This document shows, one piece after another, positions 5,524 through 62,538 of a DNA stretch of 64,000 nt. Position 1 is the stretch's first letter. Each line of letters starts with the position of its first letter. The DNA is from Ureibacillus sp. FSL W7-1570. Its GTDB lineage: Bacteria > Bacillota > Bacilli > Bacillales_A > Planococcaceae. Under the pieces are notes generated by a model that worked only from the letters and a program-made list of their open reading frames with translations, did not search any database and had not been told where the DNA came from. The stretch covers positions 1,998,001 to 2,062,000 of the forward strand of contig NZ_CP151979.1 of NCBI RefSeq assembly GCF_038593265.1. The letters run 5' to 3'. The position numbers were made by a program, and so were the translations under genes.

Positions 5524-8500
5524 TCATACGTTGAAATATCTCGCGCTTGGGTGGGCAAAGACGATGGCCGAAACGCTTGCTTCCGGCTCCATCATGTAAC
5601 CTTCCGTCAAATGTACGCCAATTTGCTCCGGTTTCAACAATTTAAACAGCTTCTCCTGATCCTCCAAATTCGGACAAGCCGGGTAACCAAAGGAGAATCG
5701 CTGACCTTGATACTTGGCGGCAAAACGTTCCTTCATCGTAAAGTCTGTCGGATCCGGGAATCCCCAATCGTCTCGGATTTCCTGGTGCAATCGTTCTGCA
5801 AATCCTTCCGCAAGCTCCAATGCTGTGGAAAGGAGCGCATGGCTTTCCAAGAATTTTCCTTCTTCTTTTAATCGTTCCGCCTTTTCTTTTGCACCATGGC
5901 CGGCAGTAACCACCATGAGCGCCACATAATCCATTTCTCCGCTATCAACAGATTTCAAGTAATCGGCAAGACATAAATATGGTTCTACTTGTTGCCGTGG
6001 GAAATGAAATCGCTCAATTTCAGTTTTCATATCATCCGGGCTGTAAATGATCACATCGTCCCCATCACTTTGGGCAGGGAAGAATTGATACATGCCTGAA
6101 GGCTTCAAGACTCCGGAATTTAAAATGTCCATCACCAAATTGTATAATTCCACCGCCCGCGCGTCTTTCTCTGCCAGCAATTTCTCCACATTGCCTTTCA
6201 AGCCCAAATGATGGCCGAGCAATGTGCGCATATTGACATATGGCAGCAAATGTTGAACCGAATAATTTTTCTTAATATGCACTTTCAAATCTTTTGGTAC
6301 GAACACCGGCGCATCTTCCACCGTTCTGGCTTGCTTTTTCGGCGCTTCTTTTTTCGGCCGGTTTGCCCGTTTCGCATCCGCTTCTAACCGTTTTTCACGG
6401 GATTCCCGAATTTCTTGCAGGAAGGCTTCCCGTTCGTTTGAATCCATCAAACGGTTGGCATGTTCCAACCCTTGCATCGCGTCTTTTGCGTAAATCACCG
6501 GTCCATCGTATTCCGCGGCGATTTTCGTTTCCGTAAAGCGTTTCGTCAAAGCGGCTCCCCCAACAAGAATCGGTACATCAATGCCGGCCGCTTTAAAGTC
6601 TTGTGCCGTCAACACCATTTGCTGTGCCGACTTCACTAGTAGTCCAGATAAGCCGACGATATCCGGTTTTTCTTTGCGGATGGCTTCAATCAATTCCGCA
6701 GGGGTTACTTTGATCCCTAAATCAATGACTTGATAACCATTGTTGCTCAAAATTATATCCACTAAGTTTTTCCCGATATCGTGAACGTCGCCTTTTACCG
6801 TAGCCAAAATGACTTTCCCTTTTCCGGCGCTGTCCTCCACTTTCTCCATATACTGTTCCAGGTGTGCAACGGCTGCCTTCATGACGCCGGCACTTTGCAA
6901 TACTTCCGCCACGATTAATTGGTTATCGTTGAATAAGCGGCCGACTTCCGCCATGCCGTCCATAAGCGGCCCGTTTATAATATCGAGTGGCGTATCAAAG
7001 ATTTTTCTTGCTTCCTCCAAATCTTCAATTAATCCTTCTTTTGTTCCTTCGACGATGTAATATTTCAAACGTTCCTCCACCGTCGCAGGAAGCTCGACCT
7101 TTTTCTCCTCTTTCTTTTTATCCCGGTAAAAGGCCGTAAATTTCGCCAAGGTTTCATCGTTCGTATTGAAAATCAAATCATTGGCAAGTTGAATTTCTTC
7201 TTCCGGCAACGAAGCGTAACGCTCCAATTTTTCCGTATTGACGATGGCATAATCCAGCCCCGCTTGCGTGCAGTGATATAAAAATACCGCATTCAACACT
7301 TCCCGTCCCACAGGTGGAAGACCAAAGGAAACGTTGCTGATGCCAAGCACCGTCAAAGCTCTCGGGAATTTCCGCTTAATTAAACGGATTCCTTCAATCG
7401 TTTCCTCCGCGGCGCCAATGTATTGTTCATCCCCCGTACCTACTGGGAACACCAATGGGTCAAAAATGATATCTTCCGGTGCCAAGCCCCATTTTTCCGT
7501 CAAGATTTTGTACGAGCGTTCCGCAATGGCCAATTTTCTTTCGCGCGTAACGGCCATTCCTTCTTCGTCGATTGTTCCAACCACAACGGAAGCCCCGTAT
7601 TTTTTTACAATCGGGAGCACTTTGTCGAAACGCTCTTCACCATCCTCCAGATTAATAGAATTGATGATGGCCTTTCCTTGGGAATATTTCAACGCCTCCT
7701 CGATGACGCGCTCATCCGTTGAGTCAATCACCAAAGGCACTTTCACTTTCTTCACAACTTCTTGCATAAACTTGCGCATATCCTCAAGCTCATCCCGGTC
7801 AGGATTTGCCAAACAAATATCGATGACATGCGCCCCGTTTTTCACTTGGGCACGGGCGATTTCCGCCGCTTCCTCGTATTTTCCTTCAATGATTAATTGC
7901 TTAAATTTGCGGGAACCGATGACGTTCGTTCTTTCACCAATAAACAACGGACGCATGGAATCATCATAAACAAGCGGTTCAATGCCGGATACTGCATGTC
8001 CGTGGGATTTTTCCTTCTTCGGACGCGGTTTGTAATCTTTGATCGCTTCACGAATGGCTTTAATGTGGGCAGGAGTCGTTCCGCAGCATCCTCCGACAAT
8101 GTTTAGCCAGCCTTTTTCAGCAAATCCTTTCAATTTGGTCGATAACGATTCCGGTGTTTCGTGATAGTGCCCTTCTTCATCCGGCAATCCGGCGTTCGGA
8201 TAACAGCTGATATAACTTGTGGACAATTCGGATAAGGAGCGGATATGGTCCGTCATAAACTCCGGTCCTGTCGCACAGTTCAGACCAATGGAAATTGGAT
8301 GTATATGCTCAATGGAAATATAGAAAGCTTCAATGGACTGACCGGCCAATGTTGTTCCCATCGGTTCAATTGTTGCGGAAACCATGACCGGAAGCTCTTT
8401 TCCCGTTTCTTCAAAAGCCCGCTTGATGCCAAGGGTTGCCGCTTTTACATTCAGCATATCCTGGCTTGTTTCAAGCAAAAGCAGGTCCGCTCCGCCGTCA

Positions 8501-31434: not shown

Positions 31435-33375
31435 TTGATCATACTTCAAGTGAATCAACTGTCGAAATCTTTCCTATCTGATGAAATATTAAGGGATGTC
31501 AAACTGGAAATTCAACATCGGGACCGCGTTGCTTTGGTTGGACGTAACGGGGCCGGGAAATCCACCCTGTTAAAAATCATCGCCGGTCAAATGTCATACG
31601 ATTCCGGGGAAATCATCATTCCTAAAGATATAACAATCGGTTATTTGGAGCAACATACAGGCCTCGAATCGAAGCGGACCATTTGGGAAGAAATGATGAC
31701 GGTCTTTGAACCGTTGAAAAAGCAGGAAATGCGGTTGCGTGAATTGGAGCAGCAAATGGCGGATCCATCCGTCTATGAAAATCCGACGAATTACTCCCGA
31801 ATCATGGCGGAATATGACCAACTGCAGCATGCCTTCAAAGATGCGGGCGGTTACCAATATGAAGCGGATACCCGTTCCGTCCTCCATGGAATGAAATTTT
31901 ATCCTGACATGTATGACCAACCCGTTTCTTCCTTATCCGGTGGTCAACGCACCCGTCTTGCCCTTGCAAAACTGCTGCTCAGCAAACCGGATTTATTAAT
32001 TTTGGACGAGCCTACCAACCATTTGGATATTGAAACATTAAGCTGGCTTGAAAATTATTTAAAATCCTATTCCGGTGCCATTTTAATGGTTTCCCACGAC
32101 CGCTATTTTTTGGATCAGATCGTCAATATCGTGTATGAAGTATCAAGAGGCCGCGTCACAAAATATGTTGGAAATTACAGCGATTATTTGGATCAAAAAG
32201 CGAAGCAATATGAACGCGACTTAAAAATGTATGAACATCAGCAGGATGAGAAAGCCAAGCTGGAAGAGTTCATTCAAAAGAACATCGCCCGCGCATCTAC
32301 CTCCAAACTGGCGAAAAGCCGGAGAAAAATGCTGGAACGCATGCAATGGATGGATGCCCCGGCAGGCGATGAAAGATCCGCAAAATTCGGTTTCGACATT
32401 GAACGGCAAAGCGGAAACGATGTGTTATCCGTTGATGACCTGGCCATCGGTTATGATGAACATCATATCGTTTCAAGAAACATCAATTTGCGTATCTTCC
32501 GGCAGGATCGGGTGGCCATCGTCGGTCCAAATGGTGTCGGCAAGTCCACCTTTTTAAAAACCATTGTGAAAGATTTGCCGGCACTTTCCGGAAACATCCG
32601 ATACGGAACGAATGTCAAAATCGGCTATTATGATCAAGATCAGGCAAAACTTCACAGTAATAAAACGGTGCTGAATGAACTGTGGGATGAATGGCCGTTA
32701 CTGCCCGAGAAGGAAATCCGCACCGTATTGGGGCAATTTTTATTCAGCGGCGATGATGTGTTAAAACCTGTCAACGCACTGTCCGGTGGAGAAAAAGCCC
32801 GGCTTGCCCTTGCAAAGCTGATGATGCAAAAAGCGAACTTCCTTGTCTTGGACGAACCGACAAACCATCTCGATTTAGACAGCAAGGAAGTGCTTGAAAA
32901 TGCATTGATGGATTATCCGGGAACCATTCTCTTCGTTTCCCATGACCGCTATTTCATCAATAAGATCGCCACTAAAGTCGTCGAACTATCTTCAACGGGA
33001 ACGTTCGAATATTTAGGGGATTACGACTACTATGTTGAGAAAAAACAAGAATTGATGGAATTGGCAGAAATGAATGCGGCAAAACAGGCAGAAAAACAAG
33101 AAACCAAAACGGACCATTCATCAATGGCAAATGCGAAAGAAATCAGAAAAAGGGAAAGACAAATACAAAGAAAATTGGAAGAAATCGAAAAAGACATGTC
33201 CCAAATTGAAAATAAAATCAATGACATCGAACTTGAGCTCTGCAAACCTGAAATTTTCAGCGATTACGAAAAAGCATTGGAGCTGCAAAACGAGTTGGAC
33301 TCATTAAAACAAACCCACAGTGAGCTGGAACTCGAATGGCTTGAACTGCATGAAGAATTGGAAAATCTGAAATAA
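31435..33375 (+). CDS. ydiF: ABC-F family ATPase (YdiF/Uup-like)
   Basis: This 646-residue soluble protein has two ABC domains and no membrane part. Domain 1 has GRNGAGKST, LSGGQRTRL and LLILDEPTNHLD. Domain 2 has GPNGVGKST, LSGGEKARL and LVLDEPTNHLD. A linker (about 235-310) joins them, and a C-terminal coiled coil (about 565-646) rich in Lys/Glu completes it. ABC-F proteins bind the ribosomal E site and relieve stalled peptide-bond formation; YdiF is a housekeeping member. It starts at TTG 31435 after GAGGTG. The first copy of the terminal-inverted-repeat element begins 5 bases after its stop. Confidence 0.92.
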   Translation: MIILQVNQLSKSFLSDEILRDVKLEIQHRDRVALVGRNGAGKSTLLKIIAGQMSYDSGEIIIPKDITIGYLEQHTGLESKRTIWEEMMTVFEPLKKQEMRLRELEQQMADPSVYENPTNYSRIMAEYDQLQHAFKDAGGYQYEADTRSVLHGMKFYPDMYDQPVSSLSGGQRTRLALAKLLLSKPDLLILDEPTNHLDIETLSWLENYLKSYSGAILMVSHDRYFLDQIVNIVYEVSRGRVTKYVGNYSDYLDQKAKQYERDLKMYEHQQDEKAKLEEFIQKNIARASTSKLAKSRRKMLERMQWMDAPAGDERSAKFGFDIERQSGNDVLSVDDLAIGYDEHHIVSRNINLRIFRQDRVAIVGPNGVGKSTFLKTIVKDLPALSGNIRYGTNVKIGYYDQDQAKLHSNKTVLNELWDEWPLLPEKEIRTVLGQFLFSGDDVLKPVNALSGGEKARLALAKLMMQKANFLVLDEPTNHLDLDSKEVLENALMDYPGTILFVSHDRYFINKIATKVVELSSTGTFEYLGDYDYYVEKKQELMELAEMNAAKQAEKQETKTDHSSMANAKEIRKRERQIQRKLEEIEKDMSQIENKINDIELELCKPEIFSDYEKALELQNELDSLKQTHSELELEWLELHEELENLK

Positions 33376-33379
33376 TGTC

Positions 33380-33677
33380 GAGGCTGGGACATAACTAATA
33401 AAGTGAACGAGCTGCAAAAAGATTTTTTTGTAATAAATTGATTGGAGTGACGGGGCGAGTGCTCCTGTCGCGCACGCTTAGTCGCAAAGCAAAAGCTTTC
33501 CTGCGGGAACAGCCCGAGTCTCGAGACCCCGCAGGAGCGAAGGATTGAGCTCCGAGGAGGCTCGAGCCGGGCCCGCGGAAAGCGTCCCCGGAACGGAAAT
33601 CAATTTTCTTCAATTATCAAAAAAACACCATTTTCTCCCGGGAGAAAATGGTGTTTTTTATCTTTTGTCCCAGCCTC
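33380..33677 (+). repeat. TIR repeat element, copy 1 (complete, 298 bp)
   Basis: This non-coding element is bounded by GAGGCTGGGACA and TGTCCCAGCCTC. Inside are an imperfect GC-rich stem (CCTGCGGG...CCCGCAGG), a CCCGCGGAAAGCG block, and a perfect 32-base palindrome at 33624-33655 flanked by A and T runs. The same sequence recurs at 34053-34240 plus 38344-38462 and at 62281-62538. Having inverted ends and no gene, it resembles a MITE. Its position right after ydiF means the palindrome probably terminates that gene. Confidence 0.85.
33624..33655. terminator. Perfect palindrome terminator inside repeat copy 1
   Basis: A 16-bp perfect stem centred on CCCGGG has A runs on the left and T runs on the right, so it can work in both directions. 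It is identical in the other copies (38409-38440 and 62485-62516). Confidence 0.8.
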
Positions 33678-33774
33678 TTTATTGTTCCAGGAATGCAACA
33701 CCCTTTGGTCCTTATTGTTTTGTATACATATATCTTGGTCAATAGACATTTTTCGATAAATTTTTCCCACAATT

Positions 33775-34027
33775 TTATTCACAATGAAAATACAGCTATA
33801 CCAACATATCAACAACCTTTTCCACACTATCCACATTGGGATTTTTATTTATTCACATTTGATTCTGAAAAAATACACACAATATATTGATTTCCCACAA
33901 AATTATCACAGGTTATGCACAAGTTATCCACAAATTGTGTATAAGTACGGATGTTCGTCTTGACAAATCCGGAAAGATATTAACATACTTGTGGATAAGT
34001 TTTCAGAAAAATAACAAATGTGCATAA
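33775..34027. promoter_or_regulatory. DnaA-box cluster between ydiF and tsaD
   Basis: Seven exact matches to TTATNCACA lie within 253 bases. Four are on the plus strand (33775-33783, 33849-33857, 33913-33921, 33924-33932) and three on the minus strand (33936-33944, 33990-33998, 34019-34027). Further one-mismatch sites occur at 33818-33826 and 33827-33835. No gene is present. B. subtilis has a DnaA-box cluster at the matching gcp-ydiF intergenic region, one of several that bind DnaA away from oriC and restrain initiation. The same role is inferred here. Confidence 0.85.
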
Positions 34028-34052
34028 CTTTAATTCATTCTAAAATAAAAAA

Positions 34053-34240
34053 GAGGCTGGGACATAACGAATAAAGTGAACGAGCTGCAAAAAGAATTTT
34101 TGTAAAAAATTGATTGGAGTGACGGGGCGAGTGCTCCTGTCGCGCACGCTTAGTCGCAAAGCAAAAGCTTTCCTGCGGGAACAGCCCGAGTCTCGAGACC
34201 CCGCAGGAGCGAAGGATTGAGCTCCGAGGAGGCTCGAGCC
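34053..34240 (+). repeat. TIR repeat element, copy 2, left part (split by IS4-family element)
   Basis: This is the left 188 bases of the repeat, from GAGGCTGGGACA up to GGCTCGAGCC, where the IS4-family element begins. The rest of the same copy resumes at 38344, with GGCTCGAGCC duplicated. Confidence 0.9.
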
Positions 34241-34458
34241 CAATGTCAGAAACTTATACAACCAATAATTTACAGTTAGTAGGCAACCATCTGGTTGTCT
34301 ACTTTTAAAAATACTATTCAACCTACAAAGTGTTGATAATTTTCTAAAATCGGCTAAAAAAGGCAATAGGATGCCCGGGGCTTAAATTTTTATTTTTTTA
34401 AGCCCCTAATTTATTTACATTTAATAAACAAATAGGTTATATTTATCCTACGTATTGT

Positions 34459-35527
34459 TTATAGACACCTTTTTTGGTTTAGGGGATACTTTGTTGAGGA
34501 CAGACCATTCCTTCGTGGGTAACTTCTCCCAAACCGAATAGGTGTCTTATTTCTTATAATCACTTTCATGATTTTTGTAAACATTCTCTCTCTTTTGATT
34601 GGACAATCTTCTAATAATAAGTGAACCATCCTATCTTTTAATTTTCCTATTAAGATATTTGTGTTTACTTGATAATCATGTTTTCGTCTTTTTTTCTTAC
34701 TCTCCTCATTAATTGTTTCATTGGCATCATTTCTCAATAAACTGACCATATTCGATAAATATATTGATGCATAGAAATCTTGTTCAATTGCGATTTTCGA
34801 ACTACCCGTGAAATTTTCTATTTCGATTTTATTTTTCACATCATTATATTCTGTTTCAATTCCCCAGCGTTTAAAATAAAGAGATTTAAACTCAGAGATA
34901 TCAAACTCTTCCTCGGTTAAATTTGTGACAAGTATTTCTTCCGTGCCAGAATCCAGTGGGAATCTAACTACACGAGCAGTAATCACTTGTTTCCTATGTA
35001 TTATATGAATGTTTTGATCAGCATCTTTCGCTTCGACAATTTCCTTTATCGTATTTTTTTGACATCGCATCACATATTTGATACCAAGGGCATCTAAATA
35101 GGCAATAAAATCTCTCGATGGATACCCTCGATCAAATAAAAAAAGATCATTTTTTAATCCAATTTGTACGAGTTCTTCAATCATATCCTTTGCACTATCT
35201 CGCTCAGCTACCTTATATGGATTGATTCTAGAAGTAATAATGATTCCATTCTCAAGATCGTAAATACAAGAGGCACTAGCTCTTGCATAACTTGTCTTAT
35301 GATTTTTTCCATACCCAAAATAATTTCGAAGCTCCTCAGTATCAGGAATTTGGAGCACACTTCCATCGATTGCGCAAAGTCTAAATCCACGATAAGTTTT
35401 AAAGGAATTTTCTTCATAATACCAATTCACAATCGCTTTTGTAAGTTTTACAAAAGCGAGAGGAGAAATCTTTTTTCGTGCGGCTGAATAGCCTTGTTTG
35501 GAAATACTAATTTCTGATAAATTAAAT
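34459..35527 (-). pseudogene. IS4-family transposase, C-terminal part (interrupted gene)
   Basis: This is the downstream portion of a DDE transposase split by an IS21-family insertion. It carries the first catalytic Asp (CAIDGS), the second (LFDRGYPSRDF), and the exact IS4 signature Y-2-R-3-E-6-K in YFKRWGIETEYNDVK. The 5' portion is at 37983-38190. Joining the two at the duplicated TAAAT restores one frame through DDFFDKFNLSEIS, giving about 423 residues. As it stands the gene cannot make the full enzyme. The fragment keeps the catalytic region but lacks the N-terminal DNA-binding part. Confidence 0.9.
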
Positions 35528-35583
35528 TGTAAACGTCAACCCCAAATGAACAATTTTTGCTCATTTCGGATGAACACTTTTTG

Positions 35584-36333
35584 CTAAGAAAAAATTGTTT
35601 CTTGATGTTTTAATCGGTAACTTTCGTTGTTCATATGAATCACTTCAACTCGATGTAACAGACGGTCAAGTATTGCAGTCATCATCCCTGGATTATCTAC
35701 GAGTTCTATCCATTGTTCTGGGCTTCGATTGGATGTTAAAATTAACGAACTTCGTTCATATAATTGATGAATAAGCTGGAAGAACAATGTGCCTTCTCGT
35801 TGATCCATTGCCATATACATGACATCATCAATTATCACAAGATCTGATGCACGCAGTCTCTTTAACTGAGTTTTTGACTTATTGACATATTCTTCTGTTT
35901 TTAATAGCTGAATTAATTCCCCCATGGTCACAAAATACACTTGAAAGCCTTTTTGAATCGCTTCAATTCCAAGGCCAACGGATAATAAAGTTTTTCCCGC
36001 TCCAGGTGGTCCAAGTAATATTAAGTTGTATGCTTGTTCTAACCATTGAAATTCACGTAATTGCCTTAATTGCCGCTCTGTAATGGCTGTTTGCTCATCT
36101 ATATTAAACATACTTAAAGGTTTATAGAACGGGAAACGAGCCCAATTCATTCGTCTTTCAATACTTTTCTCCTCACGTCTTTTTAGTTCATACGTAGTTA
36201 TCTGTTCTAAGAACTCTAAATATGTCCAAGATGATTGCTCTGCTTTCCGAAGGAGCTCTGGGAGCTCCTCCGCTGTTTCGGATAATCTCAATTGTTTAAA
36301 GGCTTGTTGAATTTCTGGAACACTTTTATTCAT
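35584..36333 (-). CDS. istB: IS21-family helper ATPase IstB
   Basis: This 249-residue AAA+ protein of the DnaC/IstB family oligomerises on target DNA and directs the IstA transposase. Walker A is GPPGAGKT (about residues 107-114). Walker B is DLVIIDDVMYM, and the sensor region LILTSNRSPEQW is in place. The start overlaps the istA stop by 8 bases, the usual translational coupling. No frameshift or stop interrupts it, so the element could be mobile. It lies antisense to nothing else and belongs entirely to the transposon. Confidence 0.95.
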   Translation of the reverse strand: MNKSVPEIQQAFKQLRLSETAEELPELLRKAEQSSWTYLEFLEQITTYELKRREEKSIERRMNWARFPFYKPLSMFNIDEQTAITERQLRQLREFQWLEQAYNLILLGPPGAGKTLLSVGLGIEAIQKGFQVYFVTMGELIQLLKTEEYVNKSKTQLKRLRASDLVIIDDVMYMAMDQREGTLFFQLIHQLYERSSLILTSNRSPEQWIELVDNPGMMTAILDRLLHRVEVIHMNNESYRLKHQETIFS

Positions 36334-37870
36334 TTGTTTTTCCTCCCATTCTTTGAATGTATGTATTGAAATCCCTTGTTTCTACAGCTATCGAAGAAAC
36401 AAGTTTAGTAGAATTGACCTGTATTTCAAGAATGGGATTAGATTCTTGTAGCTTTAAGTAATTTACGACATCTTGAAAAGCATTTGCACTATACAGTTTT
36501 TCACGGATACATTTCTCTAACGCCATTGGAATCCAATGAGGATCATTTTCGGCAACCCTTTGTAAAATGAGTAATTGATCACGGCGATAGCGCTTATATC
36601 TCTGGCAGATTTCATCAATATATTGTCTCGATGCTTCTCCAGTAGGAAATAAATGAAGCACTCTTTGTTTAAGCATATCAAGCGATTCTGTATGATCTCG
36701 TGCATGATTCGTATTTTTAATTAGCTTTCCTTTTTCTAAACTTATCGTGTGCTTGGCAAGTATTTCGCCAGTTGTAGGTTCTATGATGATTAATTTTTCA
36801 TTATTGATTTGCAGATTCACTGTAGGGCATTTCGTATATGTGCCGATAGGTACTGAATAGCGATTCGATTTGTAACGAATCGTGTTGTCCTTATTCACAT
36901 TCCTTGTTATAATTTCAATAGGGTTGCTTTCTGTTAAAGAAAGCGGTGAGGAGATCTTTCGTAAGTGTTTCTTTTCCAGTTGATACACTTCGTAAGGTCT
37001 CTTTTTTATTGTTTGATGCACTTTATAGTTCCCAGTACGTTCTAGCCAATTCCAGGCTTTTTCATTCCAATCTCCGATTGTTGAGAAGATACGATGTGCT
37101 GCGAAATTATACTTGATATATTTCACAACGTTCTCAATTTTTCCTTTCGATTGGGGATCTGCTTTTCGACATAGGTAAATCTGAAATTTACGTTCGTTCA
37201 CATATGCCTGAAATTTCTTTGTTAAGATAAGATCTCCAGCATTTTCGCTTACCGCAATAAGATTGTCTTGATCATAAACAATTTCTTCAGTCATTCCCCC
37301 AAAATATCTAAAGGCATTTTCGTGACAACGAATGGTGTCTTTCGTTGTAAAGGGGCGGTCTTGCCATTCCATATACTTTTGTCGAGAGTGAGATAATACA
37401 AAGGCAATAAAATAAAGTTTGATGTCCTTATTATCTATTGTTTTCTGAATGGTTTGTCCCCAGTCTACTTGCATTTGTTTTCCTGGTGGTAATTCATCAA
37501 CAGCTTCATGTTCTCGGGGTCCATCCGTTTTTTCAATTTGATAAATTTCTCTCATCTCTTTGACATACCGACGAACTGTACTTTCTCCAACTTGTAAGTC
37601 AGGAAACTTTTCTTGAAGCCAGTCCAAAATTTGTGCTCCACTCATGCTTGGATTTTCTTGTAACCATGTCACAATCCAATCCCGATAGGGATCTAACTTT
37701 TTCTTTCGCTCAATCGTGCCAAACTCCTCCACCGCTTCTTCAAATGTCATATTTAAATACTTATAAACTGTATTACGTGAGATTTTCAATTTCCTTGCGA
37801 TTTGTGAAATTCGCAATCTTTTAGTACGTAATTGATGGATTTCAATATATAACACAAGCTTCTCCTCCAC
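36326..37870 (-). CDS. istA: IS21-family transposase IstA
   Basis: This 514-residue transposase has an N-terminal helix-turn-helix (RISQIARKLKISRNTVYKYL). An rve-type DDE core follows, with VDWGQ, YDQDN and KGKIENVVKYIK supplying the catalytic residues. A C-terminal beta-barrel DNA-contact region comes after (RYKSNRYSVP). GTG 37870 after GGAGGTTGTACTA is the preferred start. The frame is intact, and with istB it makes a complete IS21 module. Some plus-strand host sequence lies within about 110 bases beyond the start, up to the element end at 37982. Confidence 0.95.
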   Translation of the reverse strand: MEEKLVLYIEIHQLRTKRLRISQIARKLKISRNTVYKYLNMTFEEAVEEFGTIERKKKLDPYRDWIVTWLQENPSMSGAQILDWLQEKFPDLQVGESTVRRYVKEMREIYQIEKTDGPREHEAVDELPPGKQMQVDWGQTIQKTIDNKDIKLYFIAFVLSHSRQKYMEWQDRPFTTKDTIRCHENAFRYFGGMTEEIVYDQDNLIAVSENAGDLILTKKFQAYVNERKFQIYLCRKADPQSKGKIENVVKYIKYNFAAHRIFSTIGDWNEKAWNWLERTGNYKVHQTIKKRPYEVYQLEKKHLRKISSPLSLTESNPIEIITRNVNKDNTIRYKSNRYSVPIGTYTKCPTVNLQINNEKLIIIEPTTGEILAKHTISLEKGKLIKNTNHARDHTESLDMLKQRVLHLFPTGEASRQYIDEICQRYKRYRRDQLLILQRVAENDPHWIPMALEKCIREKLYSANAFQDVVNYLKLQESNPILEIQVNSTKLVSSIAVETRDFNTYIQRMGGKTNE

Positions 37871-37982
37871 TAGTACAACCTCCAATAAACTTAATAAACT
37901 AGTTTATTAGAAGTGTATTTGATAGTGAAAAAGTGTTCAATCCAAATGAGCGAAATCTGTTGATTTTATTTTATCGTTTACA

Positions 37983-38190
37983 TAAATTTGTCGAAAAAGT
38001 CGTCAAGTTCAATTTGGAGGCTCTTTTTAACAAAGTTTAAGCTAAATAGAATAGTATTTTTAAAATTTAACTTCTTTTCTTTTCGTGTAAAATACGTTTC
38101 TTTTGTCCGAGATTCAAGCATAAACATCACATCATTCAGCAACTTTCGAGTAATCTCAATTGCCCCTAAAAAAGTACTTTTTGTTTTCAA
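37983..38190 (-). pseudogene. IS4-family transposase, N-terminal part (interrupted gene)
   Basis: These are the first 70 or so codons of the transposase, from a TTG at about 38190 following GGATGGTGG. The frame runs to DDFFDKF at the TAAAT duplication, where IS21 begins. Reading into IS21 hits a stop within two codons. It joins in frame to 35522-34459 once IS21 and one TAAAT are removed. Confidence 0.85.
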
Positions 38191-38343
38191 AAAAACCACC
38201 ATCCTCGTTTTATTAACCAAAAATTGGATTCTAAAACGATTTTGGTGGACTTTTTAAAATTACAAGAGGCTTATTACCTAATTTTATAAAAGTTAAATTA
38301 AATATTATTTTCCATTAAATGTAACGTTAAGTTGATGACATTG

Positions 38344-38462
38344 GGCTCGAGCCGGGCCCGCGGAAAGCGTCCCCGGAACGGAAATCAATTTTCTTCAATT
38401 ATCAAAAAAACACCATTTTCTCCCGGGAGAAAATGGTGTTTTTTATCTTTTGTCCCAGCCTC
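38344..38462 (+). repeat. TIR repeat element, copy 2, right part
   Basis: This is the remaining part of the interrupted repeat, starting with the duplicated GGCTCGAGCC and ending TGTCCCAGCCTC. It includes the palindromic terminator at 38409-38440. The last bases overlap the tsaD stop codon and supply its final residues. Confidence 0.9.
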
Positions 38463-39501
38463 CTTGATTCGGTTGGCGAAGATTGTCGTCTTGAATCCAA
38501 CTTTTTAATTCTTTTCCGGGCAAACCGTTCATTGACAGGTCTCCCCTTACGCCGGCTTCATACATGTATGCTGCACAGGCGCCAATCATCGCCGCATTAT
38601 CAGTGCATAAAGAGAGTGGCGGAGCCGTAAATGGTATCCCTTCTTGATCGAGCGCTTTTTGCAAACTTTCTCTTAGTCCGCGGTTCGCCGAAACACCACC
38701 GGCCACAATCACTTGTTTGACACCCAGCTCTTTTGCCGCTTTCACCGTTTTGGTTGTCAACACTTCGACCACACTATCTTGGAAGCCTTTTGCAATCTCT
38801 TCCGGAATGATTTCTTGTCCCCTCTGCTCCAAATTATGCTTATAATTGATGACTGCCGATTTTAAACCACTGAAACTGAAATCATACGTATCCTCCAACC
38901 ATGCCCGTGGAAAATCGACGCCCTTTTCCGCTTCGTGAGCCATCCGGTCGATATGCGGTCCTCCCGGATAAGGCAAGTTCAACACCCGTGCCACCTTGTC
39001 ATAGGCTTCACCTGCCGCATCATCACGGGTTTCTCCGATGACTTCAAAAGAACCGTGCCCTTTCATATAGACGAGCTCCGTATGCCCCCCAGACACTACA
39101 AGCGCCAGCAGAGGAAATTGCAACGGTTCCACCAGCGCACTTGCATATATATGCCCGGCAATATGATGCACACCAATGATCGGCAAACCGTGGGCAAAGG
39201 CAAAAGCTTTCGCGGCATTGATTCCTATGAGCAATGCGCCGACAAGACCCGGTCCCTCTGTCACCGCAACGGCATCCAAATCAGACGGAACCACATTCGC
39301 CTTTTCCAAAGCTTCTTCAATTACAATCGTGATTTGTTCAACATGGTGACGGGACGCAATCTCCGGTACGACCCCACCGAATCTTTTTTGACTTTCGATT
39401 TGTGAAGCGACTACGCTTGAGAGGATTTCATTCCCGTTGCGTATGACGCTTGCAGCCGTTTCATCACAGCTTGTTTCAATTGCTAAAATCAAGTTTTCCA
39501 T
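38443..39501 (-). CDS. tsaD: tRNA N6-threonylcarbamoyladenosine transferase TsaD
   Basis: This 352-residue ASKHA-fold protein transfers the threonylcarbamoyl group to A37 of ANN-decoding tRNAs with TsaB and TsaE. The N terminus reads [14 protein letters not shown]. The metal ligands His113 and His117 are in [10 protein letters not shown], followed by VSGGHTELV and PGGPHID. The last residues (QGGWDKR) and the stop codon are encoded by the end of the repeat element (38443-38462), so the native C terminus has been replaced. The stop of rimI abuts the tsaD ATG, and rimI, tsaB and tsaE lie upstream in one operon. Confidence 0.97.
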
Positions 39502-62280: not shown

Positions 62281-62538
62281 GAGGCTGGGACATAACTAAT
62301 AAAGTGAACGAGCTGCAAAAAGAATTTTTGTAAAAAATTGATTGGAGTGACGGGGCGACTCCTGCGGGAACAGCCCGAGTCTCGAGACCCCGCAGGAGCG
62401 AAGGATTGAGCTCCGAGGAGGCTCGAGCCGGGCCCGCGGAAAGCGTCCCCGGAACGGAAATCAATTTTCTTCAATTATCAAAAAAACACCATTTTCTCCC
62501 GGGAGAAAATGGTGTTTTTTATCTTTTGTCCCAGCCTC
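62281..62538 (+). repeat. TIR repeat element, copy 3 (258 bp, internal deletion)
   Basis: This has the same ends (GAGGCTGGGACA, TGTCCCAGCCTC) and order as copy 1. About 40 bases are missing after GACGGGGCGA, so GACTCCTGCGGG follows directly. The palindrome at 62485-62516 is unchanged. It fills the gap between two convergent genes. Confidence 0.9.

Follow-up and report, generated by a model that had tools for sequence, protein, structure and literature searches.

A DnaA-box cluster at the gcp/ydiF locus of Bacillus subtilis was reportedly described by Ishikawa in 2007 and by Okumura in 2012. In E. coli, datA is an intergenic DnaA-box locus outside oriC that depends on IHF and lowers initiation potential, and the array described here resembles it in consisting of intergenic DnaA boxes outside oriC. 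Bacilli are not known to have datA or DARS. As reported in PMC4447404, the B. subtilis gcp/ydiF site has 10 DnaA sites in vitro, binds the ATP form with a Kd of 0.15 uM, favors ATP-DnaA 16-fold at 55 nM and is one of the two most marked ATP-DnaA-preferring examples given there; the same report describes too few regions to define what makes some DnaA sites prefer ATP-DnaA. B. subtilis without all six clusters initiates early (PMC5295017), and about 10-fold overproduction of DnaA does not lead to over-initiation according to PMC13220808, where the existence of B. subtilis regulators balancing ATP- and ADP-DnaA is called unknown.

In E. coli oriC, low-affinity boxes two bases apart form two opposite arrays along one face of the helix, with high-affinity boxes flanking them (PMC4451416). 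The array described here is like the oligomerization region of E. coli oriC in having mixed-affinity boxes on one face and in opposite polarities (PMC4451416, PMC5742627), and unlike it in lying far from oriC, in showing no sign of an origin (constant skew) and in having, besides adjacent boxes, others spaced by several turns.

The DnaA-box array between ydiF and tsaD

We analyzed a stretch of 64,000 nucleotides (the window; C1:1998001-2062000) from a 3.28-Mb genome whose dnaA lies at 2.4086 Mb. In the gap between ydiF and tsaD, positions 33775-34027 (253 bases) hold seven exact TTATNCACA DnaA boxes, four in plus and then three in minus orientation, and the sequence scan bears out this arrangement as given by the first-pass annotation. 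The plus boxes lie at 33775..33783 and 33849..33857 (both TTATTCACA; helical turns 0 and 6.98), 33913..33921 (TTATGCACA; turn 13.02) and 33924..33932 (TTATCCACA; turn 14.06). They are followed by minus boxes at 33936..33944 (TTATACACA; turn 14.95), the array's polarity switch point, at 33990..33998 (TTATCCACA; turn 20.05) and at 34019..34027 (TTATGCACA; turn 22.78), the last being the sole exact box clearly off phase. Plus-strand near-boxes are found at 33818..33826 (TTTTCCACA, 7 of 8 matches; turn 4.06), 33827..33835 (CTATCCACA, 7 of 8; turn 4.91) and 33891..33899 (TTTCCCACA, 6 of 8; turn 10.94).

The flanking genes are convergent, with their 3' ends facing each other across the gap: on one side the plus-strand gene at 31435..33375, which we take to be ydiF (an ABC-F type ATPase with Pfam ABC_tran, ABC_tran_Xtn and ABC_tran_CTD), and on the other the minus-strand tsaD (gcp) at 38443..39501, assigned from its open reading frame and Pfam. 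The TsaD protein is 94% identical to that of Ureibacillus thermosphaericus and 92% identical to that of U. terrenus, identities by which we assign the genome to Ureibacillus or its immediate neighborhood. The stretch 33685-34044 contains 7 exact boxes, compared with a mean of 0.074 in 2000 dinucleotide-preserving shuffles (maximum 2), and the locus shares with B. subtilis-type gcp/ydiF clusters both this excess over chance and the convergent tsaD-ydiF synteny, a pair kept in 79 of 80 named loci. Judged by synteny, the array is the counterpart of the B. subtilis gcp/ydiF cluster, an equivalence that had been proposed from the window's sequence at the outset. The two are alike in having the same convergent genes, multiple DnaA sites and an oriC-proximal location (peak 4, PMC4447404); the array, about 376 kb (11.5% of the chromosome) from dnaA/oriC, differs from the B. 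subtilis site, as described in print, in its opposed half-arrays with a conserved block (B2, below) and in the mobile repeats that flank it.

Relatives of the locus and the mobile DNA around it

The first set of 80 named loci, retrieved via TsaD, comes mostly from Bacillales genera and includes some MAGs and one entry titled Chryseobacterium; the single locus without a convergent ydiF (L072) lies on a short contig with no ydiF match. We observe at least one exact box in 78 of the 79 named gaps and three or more in 72, with 342 exact boxes in total compared with 4.0 expected, and a box density of 8.77 per kb in the gaps compared with 0.083 per kb in the flanks. As many as 78 of the 79 gaps beat all 50 of their shuffles, numbers that, like the jitter numbers below, overstate independence because the sequences are related. 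The array is missing in Bacillus taeanensis (L055), where a 32-bp gap (5606-5637) holds little besides an inverted repeat common to tsaD and ydiF.

From a class-wide search of 121 genomes we took 40 stretches, namely L158, a near relative with seven boxes, plus 39 loci spread over 35 families other than that of the window (Caryophanaceae in NCBI, which we take to be Planococcaceae). Clusters, counted here as three or more boxes 3' of tsaD with neighbors no more than 160 bases apart, are present in 24 of the 39 loci (21 of the 35 families) and absent from the remaining 15. Two of the clusters (L160 and L167) lie nearer the ydiF end, and one (L195), 849 bases from tsaD and with no ydiF match, may not be homologous. 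A search of 200 genomes was used for coordinates only, and its loci (L126-L155) were left out of the analysis. Compared across relatives, as the first-pass annotation had suggested, the gap thus carries boxes, rather than lacking them, in close (78 of 79 gaps) as well as distant (24 of 39 loci) relatives. These comparative data argue for the selection on the cluster that the annotation had suggested; the ground it gave, survival of the boxes beside an insertion, is the poorer argument.

Alignment confirms that direct repeat copies starting at 33380 and 34053 bracket the box cluster. Copy 1 (33380..33677, plus strand; ends GAGGCTGGGACATAA and TTTTGTCCCAGCCTC) starts four bases past the ydiF stop codon and contains a perfect inverted repeat (33620-33659) with a terminator-like score; copy 2, also on the plus strand, is found in two halves (34053..34240 and 38344..38462), the second half carrying that inverted repeat again (38405-38444), and the aligned parts of the copies are 99% identical over 144 nt and 89% identical over 63 nt. 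Copy 2 is split by an insertion (34241..38343) with a 10-bp GGCTCGAGCC at both borders, which is a DDE-transposase element with IS21-type istA/istB (about 35528-37982) nested inside. The earlier picture of a gap filled by transposons is right in that mobile DNA is present; instead of piecemeal filling, there is one nested insertion, that in copy 2. In addition to dnaA itself, a whole-genome scan gave 24 weaker matches to the Bac_DnaA domain. The only one of these in the window is the IstB protein, and many of the 24 probably stem from multicopy insertion sequences, since several others share identical scores.

Both copies adjoin gene 3' ends, copy 2 taking in the tsaD stop codon. The terminal codons of tsaD, stop included (38443-38465), come from the repeat, and the TsaD tail is for this reason unlike that of relatives. 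Because each copy contains the perfect inverted repeat, both ydiF and tsaD may now end in a repeat-supplied hairpin. A structured RNA was considered and rejected: when 33300-34300 was searched against Rfam, the 7 hits were all sub-threshold and fell at 33618-33700, within the repeat hairpin or next to it. Searching the genome with copy 1 (40 of 88 first-look candidates scored) listed at least 50 matches, among them at least 22 of at least 120 bases and at least 16 of at least 258. The family, whose ends are inverted and which has a hairpin inside, may serve as a mobile terminator. It is also present in the window at 62281-62538. The repeat ends were found in none of the 80 compared tsaD-ydiF gaps, that of L158 included, and the repeats and the insertion can on this account be taken as recent; judged from these comparisons, the array is old and its flanking repeats and insertion are recent. 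As the array lies between direct copies, their recombination would, by geometry, take out about 673 bp, all seven boxes included. The deletion hazard raised by the first-pass annotation is therefore real as geometry, and no locus among the 80 compared gaps, all without repeat ends, shows such a deletion.

Helical phase, polarity and non-box blocks

Box-to-box distances peak near 11, 22, 32, 43, 53, 64, 74, 86, 97 and 127 bp, and the best period, 10.65 bp, is alike for same-orientation and inverted box pairs. Among 49 distinct architectures, mean coherence is 0.861, compared with a jitter null mean of 0.449 (maximum 0.523 of 500). With period and shift fixed beforehand from the first-set architectures, the 24 clusters outside the window's family show a coherence of 0.758 (null 0.465, maximum 0.625 of 5000), and a set of one cluster per family (20 families, with L195 and the second loci of three families removed) shows 0.750 compared with 0.479, a value reached by 0 of 20,000 jittered sets. 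Five of the 39 other-family loci have a TsaD 80 to 83% identical to that of some first-set genome. When the clusters are limited to those whose TsaD shares less than 72, 70 or 68% identity with the first set (n = 12, 11 and 9, with L162 retained although it has no TsaD match), the observed value is reached by 0, 1 and 3 of 10,000 jittered sets.

Six of the seven exact boxes in the window are in phase, and the window and its nearest named relatives (L009 and L010) carry 11 extra bases, one turn, relative to the other 12 aligned rows. Box number and spacing drift, but by whole helical turns (10.6 bp), with boxes 9 bp apart as a real exception to the phase rule. Near-boxes (6 or 7 of 8 matches, with no overlap with an exact box) score 0.096 in phase compared with 0.006 in anti-phase, the in-phase value being higher in 77 of 77 scorable gaps (of 80). 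Literature on DnaA-box phasing, same-face placement, cluster conservation and gcp/ydiF, in its accessible portions, states no phase rule for the locus, which does not prove that none has been published.

The phasing could be unselected, a by-product either of curved A-tract DNA or of an array born through tandem duplication. Spacings of 11 and 22 bp are indeed common among tandem boxes, and curvature may contribute to phase, since A-tracts show a weaker coherence (0.375) at the same 10.6-bp period. We nevertheless consider this unlikely, given that the spacers between boxes differ in sequence in the alignment, that the phase is found again in families with other spacings and that T-tracts show no 10.6-bp peak (0.122). 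In our preferred reading of the array as a platform for DnaA, a lattice of about 10.6 bp that holds most of the boxes would place bound DnaA on one side of the helix.

Box orientation is likewise ordered. Read from tsaD, the boxes run plus-then-minus or are all minus in 67 of the 72 gaps that hold at least three, compared with 19 expected if boxes were oriented at random (47 with a switch, 20 all minus and 5 others). In the window, the switch adjoins a conserved non-box block, B2 (GTCAAGACGAACATCCGTAC, core GAACRNNNGTAC; 33945..33964, minus strand), next to the 33936 box. We find GAACANNNGTAC immediately before the TTATNCACA box at the switch in the window and in 48 of 48 named loci that we assign, genus by genus, to Planococcaceae; L158 reads GAACG at the B2 position. 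Block and box together (GAACRNNNGTACTTATNCACA, zero mismatches) occur once each in 27 of 249 class-wide genomes and their reversed control in none. Broken down by family, the window's own accounts for 22 (of 23 genomes) and one other (f9) for 5 (of 18), with 0 among the remaining 208. At least 22 of the 27 matches lie within 1.8 kb 3' of tsaD (tsaD positions being listed for 22 genomes). In this genome, the only zero-mismatch B2 match is at the array, and 12 others have 3 mismatches, near the control counts of 5 and 4. Alignment and motif scans point to three further conserved non-box blocks, all on the minus strand and with narrower ranges than B2: B1 (TTTTTCTGAAAA; 34000..34011), B3 (GTTGATATGTTGATATTACT-like; 33794..33813) and B4 (33727..33750), which is found in Ureibacillus and part of Lysinibacillus. 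A LexA/SOS site at B2 was considered and rejected, though not disproved, by comparison with the usual LexA consensus: the 49 rows, picked by closeness to the GTAC consensus, read GAAC-N4-GTAC and none reads GTTC, and a genome scan for a LexA-like dyad with one mismatch gave 31 matches compared with 83 per strand in the reversed control.

The switch invites comparison with DARS, where ADP release from DnaA is promoted, and with datA, where DnaA hydrolyzes ATP in an IHF-dependent manner. In such a site, a head-to-head DnaA dimer at opposed boxes would drive nucleotide exchange or hydrolysis, with the partner at B2 replacing IHF or Fis. The opposed-then-tandem (+,-,-) topology is that described for E. 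coli DARS cores (PMC5742627), with box I (33936, minus) opposed to tandem boxes II and III (33924 and 33913, plus) as in DARS1 and DARS2, and of the 23 family genomes, 22 have a single-copy non-box block beside the switch. We judge the reading improbable, however, as the spacing is 12/11 bp in the window and 14/12 in both E. coli cores, which sets the array apart from DARS membership, and as 20 of the 72 gaps contain no opposed exact box. Nucleotide preference also differs, DARS being reported to prefer ADP-DnaA (PMC5742627) and the B. subtilis counterpart ATP-DnaA (PMC4447404).

DnaA-controlled transcription, with the array repressing or timing a short transcript from an internal promoter toward the 3' end of tsaD, seems to us quite improbable. 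A promoter-like TTGACA-18-CATACT (33960..33989, plus strand; 10 of 12, a match to consensus only) does lie beside the 33990 box, but the 5 promoter-like hits compare with 2.0 (sd 1.5) after shuffling, the -35, which reads GTCAA on the opposite strand, is missing from 14 of 49 rows, and neither flanking gene can have its promoter in the gap, since both genes end there. The Rfam search found nothing above its gathering score.

Chromosomal position, sister clusters and a candidate role

Two opposed arrays, like those of the oriC oligomerization region, might also be expected of a secondary or relic replication origin. GC skew stays negative across the window in all eight 8-kb bins, and dnaA-dnaN with its own box clusters lies about 376 kb away; because the sign of the skew is constant over the window, we reject this reading as hardly credible. 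From the observed boxes and their conservation, phasing, polarity and position, we infer instead DnaA binding, cooperativity and titration: the array is probably, in a reading we favor with fair rather than strong confidence, an oriC-like platform that is not an origin and that is predicted from sequence to bind ATP-DnaA cooperatively and titrate it. In the space where tsaD and ydiF converge, the lattice of about 10.6 bp is laid out as two half-arrays of opposite polarity; a cooperative ATP-DnaA oligomer would start on the high-affinity boxes and grow over the weaker boxes in phase with them, without initiating replication. Copied soon after initiation, as its distance from oriC would imply, the array would double and take up ATP-DnaA, and this uptake would help to damp re-initiation jointly with sister clusters at ywlC and rlmH/yydA.

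A cooperative ATP-DnaA sink is suggested because the B. subtilis counterpart prefers ATP-DnaA and deletion of six clusters advances initiation. The first-pass annotation had credited the B. subtilis locus with limiting initiation; early initiation follows removal of the six clusters together, and for the gcp/ydiF cluster alone a limiting role is at most putative. Published B. subtilis data speak partly against a strong titration role, among them the lack of over-initiation at about 10-fold DnaA overproduction (PMC13220808). A wider reading, which we hold only tentatively and regard as rather doubtful, is that of a datA/DARS counterpart: an old platform of Bacilli off oriC, coded by helical phase and not by fixed spacing, which would nucleate an ATP-DnaA oligomer and, in the family of the window and some members of one other, have a dedicated partner at GAACRNNNGTAC. 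The recurrence of phased rows at the locus suggests a docking platform that may help to time DNA replication. Comparison of the locus yields many natural variants and points to a testable rule, helical phase plus mixed-affinity boxes. For the question of ATP-/ADP-DnaA balance it offers a tangible subject of study, being a structured site outside oriC that is widely conserved.

Same-orientation box pairs 9-39 bases apart are found at only three places in the genome, the first being the array itself. The second is at 2.3765 Mb, between rlmH and an htrA-like gene, and the third at 2.9333 Mb, before ywlC, these neighbors being named, presumably correctly, from their translations; we take rlmH to be yydA of B. 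subtilis. Among the 30 returned loci per gene from 61 family genomes searched, sister clusters of three or more boxes are present in 27 of 30 for ywlC and 27 of 30 for rlmH. Judged by their gene neighborhoods, the two clusters fit the DnaA peaks reported near yydA and ywlC in B. subtilis in vitro (PMC4447404).

Phasing was rejected as a rule for every DnaA cluster, the signal being weaker or unclear at the ywlC, rlmH and dnaA sites. In this genome alone, the phase test gives P = 0.0014 for tsaD-ydiF, 0.008 for ywlC, 0.06 downstream of dnaA, 0.25 upstream of dnaA and 0.80 for rlmH. Over 30 loci each, coherence is 0.662 for ywlC (null mean 0.420, maximum 0.586), 0.585 upstream of dnaA (0.379, 0.525), 0.494 for rlmH (0.398, 0.547) and 0.676 downstream of dnaA (0.506, 0.767), clusters that test phase poorly because their layouts vary little.

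With respect to position, tsaD lies ~376 kb and ywlC ~525 kb from dnaA in this genome (3.28 Mb), compared with ~316 kb and ~484 kb in a complete genome of the same genus (G002; 3.02 Mb), and the sides of dnaA on which they lie are exchanged between the two. Exchanged sides with kept distances are consistent with an inversion around oriC (C1 2.03-2.93 Mb of this genome relative to G002).
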